Assembly: GCA_034521495.1 (NCBI GenBank)
Contig: JAXHMK010000015.1
Location: 62,001-126,000 of the forward strand
Reading direction: 5' to 3'
Origin: Balneolaceae bacterium
GTDB taxonomy: Bacteria; Bacteroidota; Rhodothermia; Balneolales; Balneolaceae
DNA length: 64,000 bases
Positions 35,281 to 59,618 of this stretch are shown here, piece by piece (the first letter of the stretch is position 1; each line of letters starts with the position of its first letter). The notes below the pieces were generated by a model. That model searched no databases. It was given only the letters and a program-made list of their open reading frames with translations, and was not told the DNA's origin. The position numbers were made by a program, and so were the translations under genes.

Positions 35281-37018
35281 GTGTCTGTTGCACAACACTG
35301 GGTTGAATTTTTGCTGATTTCCATGATGGGTTGCCATACTTATGAATGTGTCAGGCCCAGGACCGGTTTTCCTGTTAAAAAACTCCACAGGGCATTCTTG
35401 TGAAGGTTACAAGCCCCAAAAAGGTCGAAAACAGACCTCACCATCGAACAGGCCCCGCCCTGTGGTGATTTGCCCGCTTGTTTGAGCCATTTCCTCAAAT
35501 TAAAGGCCGCCGAGGCCATCATCACGTGCTTGGTGGCGGCCGCTTTGCCACGCGCGAAGGTTTTTCTCATGGCATTGTGATGGACAAGAGTGCCAAAAAC
35601 CGGCTCCACAATCCCCTTTCGTTTGGCCAGCATCCATCGGCCTTTATCGGTTTGCAAGCGTGCGTCCATGCGATCATAGAACTCTTTTCCGCTGCTGTGA
35701 TAAAGGGTTTTGTAGGTTTTTTCACCCGACAGGCAGTCCCCACGTAACGGACAATCTGCGCAATCGCCCACACGCGAGGTATAGGCTCGGTTGATGTATT
35801 TCCCGTGGCTTTTTCTCAATCCCTGAAAGGATAGTTCCGCCCCCTGCGAGCAGCGGTAACTATCGCTGAGCGGATCGTAGAGGAAGCCTTCCCGCTCTGC
35901 TTTATATCCTGAAGGATTATTCATGTACGGAATAATCCCGGCGGCTTCACAAACCCGGAGGCTATGATGGGTATTGTATTTGGAATCTGCCAGTACTTCG
36001 CTCAGCTGCAGATCGTAGGGGGCTAAATTCGCAAGACTCTGATTAAGCAGGTCCGGCAGGCTTTCGTGATCATTCAAATCGGCGTAATCGGCCAGGGCTG
36101 CTACAATCACCCCTTGGGCGGCATCCACGCTAATCTGCCCGTGATAATACATCTCGGTGGGCTTGTTGGGCTTACGGGCGATTCGGGCATCCGGGTCGCT
36201 GGTCGAACGGTGAGTTTTATTGGAACGTGTGCGTTTGACGGGGTTGTCCGGGGCTGGAATATCTACTGGGGTTAAGCAGCCGGAGGGCGAGGGCTGTTCC
36301 GTCCTCTTTTGTGAGGGAATATCTGTGGCCTCCTCTTGGTCAGAATTCTCTTCGACCACCTGCCGGCAATATTCGCTGGCGTCACTCATAATCACATCCC
36401 GGCTCATCGAGTCCACACTGGCATTGGCTTTGATCAGGGCGCTGTCGACCGCCTGACGTTTGCCGCTCACCATACCGGCATCCACACATAAGCCCAGCAC
36501 CTGGCCAAATACATCCAAAAAAAGCGACTCCCCAAACAAGGCCCGGGTTCGCGAGAGGGTACTATGGACCGGCAGAGCCTCGTCAATGTCATAGCCTAAA
36601 AACCACCGGCACCCCAGCGAATCCGAGCAGAACCGGCACAGCGCACGGTCTCCGGCGATGTTATTGAGATAGCCGATCAGACACATCTTGAAAAAGACAA
36701 CCGGATCAATGCTCTGCTGGCCGTCTTTGCCGTAATAGGTCCGGGTGCGCCTGTATAAAAACCGCAGATTCAGAGCTTGATCGATTCGGCGGTACATATG
36801 ATCGGCCGGAACGGCATCTTCCAGAGAAAACTGGTAAAAGAGTTTAGAGGTACGTTGTTTTTTTCCTTGCATGGATTAAGATATGAAAAAGGGTAAACTA
36901 AATCTATCTATATTACTGTTATTATTTAAGATATGATTATTTTTTCCGCTCTGTAAATCATGCATAAAAAATAAAAACTCAACACAATTAATTCAGATCT
37001 GCGTTGTGCAACAGACAC
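35281..37018 (-). mobile_element. IS1182-family insertion sequence
   Basis: 1738 bp, bounded by perfect 16-bp inverted repeats GTGTCTGTTGCACAAC / GTTGTGCAACAGACAC. A 4-bp target duplication ATTA flanks it (35277-35280 and 37019-37022). It carries one transposase gene on the minus strand. The base composition is visibly more GC-rich than the host genes, which fits recent arrival. Confidence 0.9.
35340..36872 (-). CDS. IS1182-family transposase
   Basis: 510 aa DDE transposase. The N-terminal helical domain (LFYQFSLEDAVPADHMYRRI, QSIDPVVFFKMCLIGYLNNI) matches the DUF772 module of IS1182. RQAVDSALIKANASVDSM carries the first Asp, DSKYNTHHSL the second, and a C-terminal Cys cluster (CADCPLRGDC) precedes KGIVEPVFGTLVHHNAMRK with the Glu. 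The frame is full length with no obvious lesion, so the element may be active. Start ATG at 36872. Confidence 0.93.
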   Translation of the reverse strand: MQGKKQRTSKLFYQFSLEDAVPADHMYRRIDQALNLRFLYRRTRTYYGKDGQQSIDPVVFFKMCLIGYLNNIAGDRALCRFCSDSLGCRWFLGYDIDEALPVHSTLSRTRALFGESLFLDVFGQVLGLCVDAGMVSGKRQAVDSALIKANASVDSMSRDVIMSDASEYCRQVVEENSDQEEATDIPSQKRTEQPSPSGCLTPVDIPAPDNPVKRTRSNKTHRSTSDPDARIARKPNKPTEMYYHGQISVDAAQGVIVAALADYADLNDHESLPDLLNQSLANLAPYDLQLSEVLADSKYNTHHSLRVCEAAGIIPYMNNPSGYKAEREGFLYDPLSDSYRCSQGAELSFQGLRKSHGKYINRAYTSRVGDCADCPLRGDCLSGEKTYKTLYHSSGKEFYDRMDARLQTDKGRWMLAKRKGIVEPVFGTLVHHNAMRKTFARGKAAATKHVMMASAAFNLRKWLKQAGKSPQGGACSMVRSVFDLFGACNLHKNALWSFLTGKPVLGLTHS

Positions 37019-53246: not shown

Positions 53247-55811
53247 ATGAAGAAAAAACGCTGGGACACCATTAATGAGATTGTTGACAGGGCGATGGAC
53301 CTGGAGATGGAAGATCGTGAGGAATATATCTCAAACAGATGCGGGGAGAATGAGAAACTAAAAAATCAGGTTCTTGAACTCCTTCAGTCCATGCAAGAAT
53401 CTGAAACTGAACGTTTCCTGGAGAGTCCAGCGGATATGCTTGGAAACCTGGCTGAAGATATTTCAAAAGAAAAAGAGGAGCCGGCTGACTCAGCTTTGAT
53501 TGGTGAGACGGTGGAGAATTATAGAATTACAGAGCTGATTGAACACGGCGGTATGGGCTCTGTTTATAAAGCCAAACGAACCGATGGAGCTTATGAAAAG
53601 GAAGTTGCTTTTAAGTTGTTGCGCAGAGGCATGGATACGCCCGCAAATATCGCACGCTTTAAGCGAGAAAGAAATATTCTTGCCAACCTCGATCACCCCA
53701 ATATTCCTCGTTTGTTGGATGGAGGAGTAACGAGAGAAGGACTCCCATTTTTGGTGATGGATTATGTAGATGGGACTCCGCTATTTGAATACTGCGATCA
53801 GCAGAATCTTTCGGTCGAATCCCGGCTTGAGATCTTTAAATTGGTTTGCAGAACCGTTCATTACGCTCATAAAAACGCTGTGATCCACCGCGATCTGAAA
53901 CCCTCTAACATTCTTATTACAGAACAGGGAAAAGTAAAAGTTCTGGATTTTGGCATTGCTAAATTACTCGAAAGCGGGGACCGCGAATGGCGGAACCATA
54001 AAACCATTGAGAGCGCCAGAATCCTTACTCTTCGATATGCAGCCCCGGAAATGATTGAGAATGAACCGATCACTACTGCCACAGATACCTATGCGCTGGG
54101 AATTTTACTGTTTGAACTTCTGGCAGGCGTTCATCCATTCGATTTTGAAGACAAAAAAATCAGGGAAATTGAACAAACCATTCTCGAGGCTTATCCCGAA
54201 AAACCCTCAACCCGATTCAAGAACCTGTCCGAAAATCAGAAGAAAGAGATTGCCGGGAATCGGAGTACTTCTCCCCGGGAACTGTATAAAATTCTGACGG
54301 GAGAGTTAGGTGCTATTGCCATGAAGGCCATCCGAAAAGAACCGGAGAAGAGATACAGCACCATCCAGATGTTGCTTGATGATGTAGAACGGAGAGAGAA
54401 GAATCAACCTATATCTGCAAAAGATAATACCGTTTGGTACAGAACCACGATCTTTTTCAGGCGGAGGAAAAAGGAGATCAGTGTGGCTGCTGTTTTTATT
54501 ATTGTAATTGCCGGGTTTATCCTGTTTTACACCGACCAGATTACTGATGAGCGAAATATTGCACGGCAGGAGGCACGGCGGGCGGATGACGTTTCATCGT
54601 TTTTGTTGGAATTGTTTGATACAGGATCGGCCGGAGATACATTGAGTGCCGCGGGATTATTGCAGCAGGGTTTGGATCACCTGGAAGATCTTGAAAATCA
54701 ACCGGCGTATGTGGATATGCTTTCCGTGATGGGGGAAGCGTATTTGAATTTCGGGGATTACGAGAAAGCTGAAGAGCTGCTTCGGAAAGCTGTAGAGGAA
54801 ACTGAACGCGAGCATGGTAGCGAGAGCCTGGAGCTTGCAAACGCTCTTTTTTCGATGGGAAAATTGCACGAAGAGCAGCGGGAATGGGTGCGGGCAGAAG
54901 AATATTTTCGAAAGGCCTACGAACTACAAGTACAACTACTGGGAGAAGATAACCCCCAAACAGCTCAAACTCTTTCACATTTTGGAACGGCGTTACGCAA
55001 CCTTGGAAAACTTGAACAGGCTGAAGAACATACTCGAAGAGCTGTTCAAATTTACAACCAGGTGTATGAATCGACCGACGCAGAAATGTTAAATGTAAAA
55101 GTAAATCTTGCCTATGTACTGAGGGAACGCGGAAAGTTTGAAGAGGCGGAAGCTATATATAGTCAGGTGATTGAAAATGCTAATCAAAACCCGGCAGTTG
55201 ATTTGGCGTCATTAGCCAACTATTACAACAATTTGGGCTATTTATACCGAGTACAGGAAGAATACGGGAATGCAGTTCGAAATTATAGAAAGAGCCTTGA
55301 ACTCCAGAATGAAAGTTATGTAGAGGGCCATCCCGAAATAATAAATACGCGGAGAAACCTGGCTTCAAGTTTATACTTTCAAGGCAGTTTAGATCAGGCT
55401 GTATCTTACCTTAAAAAGAATGCATCTGACATTCGAAATAAATATTCAACCAATCACTGGCGTACGGCTTCTGCATTAGATGCAGTTGGATTGTTTTACC
55501 TGAGAAACAAACAGTTGGCCGAAGCAGAACCGTATTTGCGAGAAAGTGTTCAGATCTATCGCAATGTACTTGGAAACGATCACCTTTGGACCGCCTACTC
55601 GGAGGGACTCCTGGCTGCTTGTTTAAAATTTCAGGATAAAAATGTGAATGAGGCTGATTCTCTTTACGACCATCATTTCCAGCTTTTTGAGCAAAACATG
55701 TCTGAATTTGATGCTGACAACCGATACCAGCTAAAGCATTTGATTGAGGTGTACTCCATCAATAGTGAAAATGAACAGATTGTTGCCGATTACCAGGAAT
55801 TATTGGATTGA
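53247..55811 (+). CDS. Membrane Ser/Thr protein kinase with TPR sensor domain
   Basis: 854 aa. Residues 1-75 are a helical leader (KKKRWDTINEIVDRAMDLEM...), repeated as a separate mini-gene at 59237. The kinase domain (~92-390) has a glycine loop EHGGMGSVYKA, Lys123 (VAFKLL), HRDLKPSNIL and DFGIAKL, so it is catalytically complete. One membrane helix (VAAVFIIVIAGFILFYT, ~residues 413-430) leads to a TPR-rich extracytoplasmic part (repeats such as EKAEELLRKAVEETEREHGS, EEYFRKAYELQVQLLGEDNP). Downstream of the ECF gene; probably its regulator. Confidence 0.92.
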   Translation: MKKKRWDTINEIVDRAMDLEMEDREEYISNRCGENEKLKNQVLELLQSMQESETERFLESPADMLGNLAEDISKEKEEPADSALIGETVENYRITELIEHGGMGSVYKAKRTDGAYEKEVAFKLLRRGMDTPANIARFKRERNILANLDHPNIPRLLDGGVTREGLPFLVMDYVDGTPLFEYCDQQNLSVESRLEIFKLVCRTVHYAHKNAVIHRDLKPSNILITEQGKVKVLDFGIAKLLESGDREWRNHKTIESARILTLRYAAPEMIENEPITTATDTYALGILLFELLAGVHPFDFEDKKIREIEQTILEAYPEKPSTRFKNLSENQKKEIAGNRSTSPRELYKILTGELGAIAMKAIRKEPEKRYSTIQMLLDDVERREKNQPISAKDNTVWYRTTIFFRRRKKEISVAAVFIIVIAGFILFYTDQITDERNIARQEARRADDVSSFLLELFDTGSAGDTLSAAGLLQQGLDHLEDLENQPAYVDMLSVMGEAYLNFGDYEKAEELLRKAVEETEREHGSESLELANALFSMGKLHEEQREWVRAEEYFRKAYELQVQLLGEDNPQTAQTLSHFGTALRNLGKLEQAEEHTRRAVQIYNQVYESTDAEMLNVKVNLAYVLRERGKFEEAEAIYSQVIENANQNPAVDLASLANYYNNLGYLYRVQEEYGNAVRNYRKSLELQNESYVEGHPEIINTRRNLASSLYFQGSLDQAVSYLKKNASDIRNKYSTNHWRTASALDAVGLFYLRNKQLAEAEPYLRESVQIYRNVLGNDHLWTAYSEGLLAACLKFQDKNVNEADSLYDHHFQLFEQNMSEFDADNRYQLKHLIEVYSINSENEQIVADYQELLD

Positions 55812-55896: not shown

Positions 55897-56299
55897 CATC
55901 CCCCTGCTCACGGAAAAGCACCGTGAGCTTCCCCCTTCGAAGGGCAATGTCGCTAACTTTAAATTTTTATATCAATAAAAAATGTTAGAAAATTTACTAT
56001 TAAATGGTGGCGTGTTGGTGGTCCAAATCGGTCCGGCCTTTGATTGCTGAAGGCGGTGGTTGATTTGCGGGGAGCGCATGCGATGGTTGTAAAAACATAC
56101 CGGATCAATCGTTGATTACGGTGACAAAGCGATATGGACCATTGTTTTTACATCGCAAAACGGACCGCAAATCCCGACTGAAGGAATCACCAGCCCGGCG
56201 GGTTTTGGATACTTTTGACCGTTCAAAAGTATCGGGGAAAAACTCTGATAATAACCAATGTTAGTGACATTACTTCGAAGGGGGATTCAGAGGGGGATG
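55897..56299. repeat. Long nested imperfect inverted repeat
   Basis: About 400 bp occupying most of the 543-bp gap. Outer arms: CATCCCCCT ... CCCCCTTCGAAG ... AATGTCGCTAAC on the left and GTTAGTGACATT...CTTCGAAGGGGG ... AGGGGGATG on the right. Inner arms: GATTTGCGG ... TGCGATG ... TAAAAACA (56062-56097) against TGTTTTTACATCGCA ... CCGCAAATC (56143-56173). The left outer arm has an extra small hairpin (CTCACGG/CCGTGAG). No convincing reading frame. A MITE-like or structured-RNA element. Confidence 0.7.
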
Positions 56300-56354: not shown

Positions 56355-57320
56355 TTAATCAACCGGGCTGCTGAAAGGAAATGATTCCCTTGCGTTATTA
56401 GATGACAGGTTTGTTGGTGTACCGCTGCCGTCAGCATCTGTTTTGTATACTTCCCGCTGGCCGTCGCGCTCGGAAGAAAAAATGAGCTCGCTGCCATCAG
56501 GTGACCACGTGGGGTAGATATCGCGTTCTGCACTGTCTGTGATTTGAGTAACATTGCTGCCGTTAGCATCCATGGTATAAATTTCGGAATTACCGCTGCG
56601 TTCGGAGGAGAATGCAATTGTACTGCCATCGGGTGACCATGCACCGGGCGAGGCAAAATCTTCATCACTGTTATCGGTGAGCTTCTGTTGATTGGATCCG
56701 TCGGAATCCATCATGAAAATTTCAAAGTCTCCATCGCGGCTGCTTGCAAAAACGATCTGTGTTCCATCGGGTGACCAAGATGCAGCTCCATCTTCTCCAT
56801 CGCTGCTTGTTAACTGCTGCAGGTTGGTGCCGTCGGCATTGATGGTAAAAATGTTTCGCGCCCCGTCCCGCAAATCATCAAATACAATTTGAGAATCATC
56901 GGGCGACCATCCGGAATAGACCACATTTGCAACGGCGGTGGTAAGACGGGTTACGTTGGAGCCGTCTGCGTCCATCACATACAGATCGGTAAATTGCCCC
57001 GCGCGACTGCTGACAAAAGATATTTTTGTACCGTCGTTCGAGATAGCCGGGGCAGAATCTGCATACTCGTTGTCTGTTAATTTCTGCTGGTTTGATCCGT
57101 CAGCATTCATGATGAATATCTCATCATCCCCGTCGCGGTCGCTGGCAAAGGCGATTTTGTTTGAGAGGACGGTTTGATCCTGATCATCGTCAGAATCATC
57201 CGTTTCATCAGACGCTGAATTTGAATCCAGCAGATCGCAGGAAATTAATCCGAAAAACAGAAGTATTAAAACAATGTTGATCCAATATGTTTTTTCGATA
57301 TACAACTCGTTGTTTTTCAT
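56355..57320 (-). CDS. TolB-like six-bladed propeller lipoprotein
   Basis: 321 aa. Lipobox FFGLISCD (Cys 29), an Asp-rich linker ([12 protein letters not shown]), then six PD40/WD40-like blades with the repeated pattern [20 protein letters not shown] followed by [12 protein letters not shown]. Blades are near-identical at DNA level. The fold matches TolB C-terminal or DPP-type sensors that bind proteins or polysaccharides. 18 bp downstream of the related gene at 57339, so the two form one operon. Confidence 0.85.
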
Positions 57321-59426: not shown

Positions 59427-59618
59427 AGATCCGCGAAGTTTTTGAAAACTGTACATGTTTAGCGGTTTGAGTCAAACAACCTGACAGAGCACTGTGCTTT
59501 TCGGTTCCTGTCAGTTGTGGGATAAGGCATTCCCCTCGAAAACCGATCCACGCGACTCTGGCAGGAGCTATCGCACTCTGCCAGGACGCTAAACAGATAC
59601 TGAAAACTTCGCGGATCT
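59427..59618. repeat. Structured dispersed repeat R1, copy 2
   Basis: The core 59451-59600 (150 bp) is almost identical to 1503-1654. It is enclosed by a perfect 16-bp inverted repeat AGATCCGCGAAGTTTT (59427-59442) / AAAACTTCGCGGATCT (59603-59618) that is unrelated in sequence to the enclosing repeat of copy 1. Lies after the kinase mini-gene. Confidence 0.8.

Follow-up and report, generated by a model that had tools for sequence, protein, structure and literature searches.

Positions 55897-56299 of the window (the whole stretch of 64,000 nucleotides of Balneolaceae DNA that was analysed) are occupied by a nested palindrome, and the locus raises the question of what this palindrome is and how it arose. 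The palindrome is real and its coordinates are correct. Folded as RNA, the region has a minimum free energy of -161.3 kcal/mol, compared with a mean of -111.6 for dinucleotide-shuffled sequences (sd 4.7, z -10.6), none of the 100 shuffles being equally stable, and its fold as single-stranded DNA has a z of -9.1. The original prediction that the region forms a long hairpin is therefore borne out by the fold against shuffled sequence that it had called for, as is its statement that no frame explains the palindrome: the interval 55944-56273 contains no open reading frame of at least 60 aa, and two merely touch its edges. The neighbouring genes are convergent, one on the + strand ending at 55811 and one on the - strand ending at 56355; from our reading of their translations, they may encode a kinase with TPR-like repeats and a protein with TolB-like repeats, respectively. 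The description of the region as one long hairpin holds for its folding but not for its origin, as the region is made up of three concentric pieces with separate origins (viz. a REP-like hairpin that has been split, the terminal inverted repeats (TIRs) that bound a mobile element, and a structured module in the interior).

We consider it about 80% probable that a 330-bp non-autonomous MITE, inserted by a DDE transposase whose most likely family is IS4, occupies the symmetry axis of a REP-like hairpin located between the two convergent genes. The identity of the MITE and the splitting of its target are the well supported parts of this explanation. A search with a 501-bp query has identified two further near-complete copies in this genome, 94-95% identical, for a total of three, along with several partial matches that are largely limited to the right-hand hairpin; hence, the palindrome is not single-copy, the finding by which the original prediction would have taken it for a relic. 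Comparison of the three copies places the ends of the element at GCAATGTCGCTAAC...GTTAGTGACATTAC, with 14-bp TIRs and a length of 329-330 bp. In the window the element extends from 55944 to 56273 on the + strand, an orientation defined by its tail hairpin, with the left TIR (GCAATGTCGCTAAC) at 55944-55957 on the + strand and the right TIR (GTTAGTGACATTAC as read on the + strand) at 56260-56273 on the - strand. Each copy is located in a different palindrome and is flanked by its own perfect 8-bp duplication, viz. TTCGAAGG for the window copy (55936-55943 and 56274-56281), TCTTGAGA for the copy on contig C9 (C9:275533) and CTTTGAAG for that on C18 (C18:153720); should the outermost base of either side belong to the target, the duplication would be 10 bp long, and the C9 copy would then have one mismatch. 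The element is thus short (330 bp) and non-coding, with TIRs, target duplications and several copies, and the MITE that had been offered as one option is supported by the three copies, their TIRs and the perfect duplication of each.

Relatives of this element are present in other Balneolales. The end pattern was matched in 13 of 128 Balneolales genomes, several of these matches being chance occurrences inside genes, and genuine relatives, in which paired ends enclose the same interior, were found in two other genomes of neighbouring genera, eight in G099 (seven complete and one without its right end) and one in G102, with the TIRs kept. Two more genomes (G037 and G115) contain ends in the same target that are truncated by contig ends, a contig of the latter sort belonging to a Balneolia MAG; a search for a continuation of the loci L066 and L067 past their contig ends found none. 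In the 11 complete elements, the two flanks of an element agree better than flanks paired by permutation (p 0.0001), and the 8-bp duplication is perfect in 4 of the 11, the other seven having 1-7 of 8 matches. A score for the self-palindromy of the 8-mers was rejected as uninformative, because the axis of the palindrome may lie off the centre of the 8-mer, and a left-subterminal match to two genomes (G048 and G008) was set aside as it looks like chance start-codon contexts. Two of the G099 copies (L062 and L077) share the same extra stretch of about 27 bases within the tail hairpin (CCGCCTGCCCCGAG..CGGG), either a small insertion that travelled with the element or a product of conversion.

The outer arms of the palindrome, which had been taken for part of the element's own hairpin, are instead the two halves of its interrupted target, a REP-like hairpin (CATCCCCCT..CCCCCTTCGAAGGGGG..AGGGGGATG) at whose axis the MITE is located. 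The outer arm TCCCCCTTCGAAG/CTTCGAAGGGGGA consists of 13 nt that are 100% complementary, the two arms being separated by 330 nt. By direct reading, the left half (55897-55943) is composed of CATCCCCCT, an GCTCACGG/CCGTGAGC hairpin and TCCCCCTTCGAAGG, its last 8 bp being the left copy of the target duplication, and the right half (56274-56299) reads TTCGAAGGGGGATTCAGAGGGGGATG. When the element is excised in silico together with one of the two duplicates, the joined flanks restore a 65-nt hairpin of -41.8 kcal/mol, with a CCCCCTT/AAGGGGG stem and the outer arms CATCCCCCT/AGGGGGATG, and none of 500 mononucleotide shuffles is equally stable. No empty allele of the exact window locus was seen; an uninterrupted relative of the target (CCCCCTTTGAAGGGGG..AGGGGGATG) is present in a genome of the same genus (L027), near another piece of the module, and REP-like sequence similar to the outer arms is found both there and at the other insertion sites. 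Nearly all of the left flanks are CCCCCTTYGAAG-like (e.g. CCCCCTTTGAAG, CCTCCTTCGAAG, and CCCTTCTTGAGA), and the nine G099 and G102 relatives are mostly inserted in the same C-rich target. Where 55930-55942 and 56282-56299 are joined, a C-run is followed by two G-runs (CCCCCTTCGAAGGGGGATTCAGAGGGGGATG), an order that resembles the intrastrand triplex motif described in PMC4666352. A second small repeat of about 155 bp, 95% identical between its copies at 1502-1657 and 59451-59600 of the window and also present at L004:71-227, has the ends TGTTTAGCG/CGCTAAACA, and its copy at 59451, with CCGCGAAGTTTTTGAAAACTG on one side and CTGAAAACTTCGCGG on the other, likewise interrupts a hairpin at its middle.

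These observations bear on two other accounts of the locus. That the palindrome is a product of chance or a decayed relic without a mobile origin has the missing coding sequence as its sole favourable point; it is opposed by the copy number, the sharp ends, the duplications and the fold (z -10.6), and the second and third copies, each with a duplication of its own, refute it, leaving it a negligible probability. It is also quite improbable, if less extremely so, that the whole 403-bp unit is a REP- or BIME-type palindrome which owes its spread to a RAYT, an HUH tyrosine transposase, rather than to a DDE enzyme. The outer arms do look like a REP with the terminal tetranucleotide GATG, and the uninterrupted REP-like sequence in L027 is in keeping with this account; however, the sequence common to the copies ends at the TIRs, the outer arms vary between copies, and 8-bp target duplications are present, which HUH enzymes are not known to make. 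In the preferred reading of a MITE in a split target, the transposase would have acted in trans on the element and inserted it by a staggered cut at the hairpin axis, duplicating 8 bp of the target, or 10 bp with the outermost bases included. We infer that mobilisation occurs in trans by an IS4-family enzyme and that the hairpin, and not its sequence alone, is recognised.

The parent transposon with the same ends that had been expected for such a MITE has been traced only indirectly, to similar ends in another order. No autonomous parent was found in the genome itself, its 17 DDE_Tnp_1 loci being without GYAATGTCRCTAAC ends, and the MITE ends were likewise not found at the DDE_Tnp_1 loci of G099 and G102. 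One DDE_Tnp_1 transposase gene lies in the window at 35496-36167 on the - strand, with a second copy on contig C14 and the candidate inverted repeats GTGTCTGTTGCACAACRC. An IS1-family parent, an idea that came from what we take to be a resemblance of the MITE ends to those of IS1, was ruled out by the occurrence of PF03400 in 0 of the 128 Balneolales genomes. A scan of 84,980 species genomes with the end pattern gave ten matches, where about 7 are expected by chance from a simple base count. One of them, in a Cytophagales MAG, is located about 60 bases upstream of an open reading frame that has three further matches in that MAG, of which two are incomplete and lie where their contigs end. The ends of this IS read TAATGACACTAAYTTAATAA (TTAAGTTAGTGTCATTA in the L098 copy), and its protein, searched in pieces, matched DDE_Tnp_1 with an E of 1.7e-5, above the model's cut-off, and transpos_IS4_1 with an E of 9.8e-8, below the model's cut-off. 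The L098 copy splits a hairpin, with a clear duplication absent. Two of the gene copies (L097 and L098) share an in-frame TAG after KAGRPKK, which is either decay inherited by both or something programmed. Because an IS with similar ends has an IS4-like protein, an IS4-family origin of the MITE is probable, albeit indirectly indicated; the link crosses an order boundary and draws on about 14 bp of end sequence and weak domain scores.

The interior of the MITE contains a long hairpin followed by TTTTGGATACTTTTGACCGTTCAAAAGTATC. The structured module (56033-56207, + strand) is a long imperfect hairpin that starts with CCGGCC and closes with GCCCGG, followed by the linker CGGGTTTTG; the tail hairpin GATACTTTTGACCGTTCAAAAGTATC (56208-56233, + strand) is its most widely shared piece. 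A consensus structure derived from 12 copies in four genomes contains 60 pairs, of which 11 have changed on both sides with the pairing kept, compared with 2.3 in shuffled and 0-1 in slid controls, although much of this signal comes from a few divergent copies (L021, L063, and L075) and relatedness inflates the counts. These changes lend support, short of proof, to the suggestion that the pairing of the module has been kept by compensatory change. The module occurs without the MITE ends in L021 (G001), and a second family of the Balneolales has it with its interior varied. Its layout, again with a different interior, is found in a 624-bp repeat of the present genome (L037:1062-1682 and L036:1367-1989, 96% identical), which has the ends GGAGTTACCCC..GGGGTAACTTC and direct repeats of 11 bp (GATACCTTATT) and 8 bp (AAATCTAA). 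The tail hairpin (TTTTGG-NTACTTTTG..CAAAAGTA) is shared with further repeats, viz. the 624-bp element and repeats in the other Balneolales family, in two additional genomes from the same family and in one from a different class. Across the phylum, a pattern for the tail was matched in at least 5 of 395, a count made with too strict a pattern, whose demand for a pyrimidine at a position occupied by G in the window made it overlook the window's own copy; a tail pattern had no matches in viral contigs, and a literature search on the tail sequence found no relevant paper. A 31-nt match in Acinetobacter baumannii (E 0.06-0.2) has a similar layout and is taken as a lead only; the repeat concerned (L101:1400-1560 and L102 at about 1500) occurs in 21 places on 5 large replicons and has the tail hairpin GGTTTTTGGTTACTTTTGACCTTTCAAAAGT.

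Our leading guess is that the module is a passenger foldback which, if active at all, would provide transcripts from the two flanking genes with a 3'-end or insulating hairpin. It is possible, although we think it unlikely, that the module instead functions as a structured RNA, or as a signal in single-stranded DNA, and that the MITE is no more than its carrier. The variable long hairpin, the linker ending in TTTTGG and the TACTTTTG tail do recur together with unrelated interiors, in carriers with different ends such as the 624-bp element and alone in L021, and the 11 doubly changed pairs would fit such a role; however, compensatory change could also come from gene conversion or template switching between the arms of a foldback, and no Rfam match was found at E up to 10. 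Strand-biased folding was considered as evidence for RNA, but the apparent preference disappeared under a shuffle control (made with a home-made shuffler and covering all but the last two modules), and therefore no RNA is claimed; of the large structured RNA raised by the original prediction, the pairing kept by compensatory change still stands while the strand preference does not. The module may even be, although we think this unlikely, an undescribed and widespread element that acts as RNA or single-stranded DNA and comprises a freely changing long hairpin closed by GGCC..GCC, a linker ending in TTTTGG, and a TACTTTTG..CAAAAGTA hairpin. Such an element would travel in two or more MITE families that are unrelated to each other, and would be found in several families of the phylum and perhaps also in Acinetobacter. 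The folded module has been reused across elements with different ends; if it were expressed or required, mobile elements would be dispersing a structured RNA or DNA signal. The module itself seems not to have been described earlier.

The present work adds to the Balneolales a MITE family that chooses the axes of REP-like hairpins, a habit so far known, in the literature that we found, from Proteobacteria. The IS4-family element ISRm22 of Sinorhizobium meliloti inserts at the axes of REP palindromes (Tobes and Pareja, PMC1525189), and in view of this precedent the targeting of a REP axis here is unsurprising. ISRm22 shares with the MITE this target and short direct repeats, whereas it is an autonomous IS of a Proteobacterium with 6-bp duplications. 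The Cytophagales IS4-like element (L087 and L097-L100) has nearly the same TIR, and its L098 copy is located in the middle of a hairpin; unlike the MITE, it contains a transposase gene (with an in-frame stop, as read in two copies) and is without the structured module. QMITE2 of Coxiella (PMC10969869) is likewise small and non-coding, with TIRs, direct repeats of 7-9 bp and a transcript predicted to fold as a long hairpin, but its ends and interior, as judged by the published description only, are unrelated. The target of the MITE resembles the REPs and the REPINs mobilised by RAYTs (PMC3733652, PMC3116915) in being a short extragenic palindrome with a terminal tetranucleotide, in contrast to the 330-bp MITE itself, whose ends are of the DDE type and which is flanked by target duplications. 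Of the kinds already known, the REP-targeting insertion sequences and the folded MITEs come closest, and insertion of this sort is already known in bacteria.
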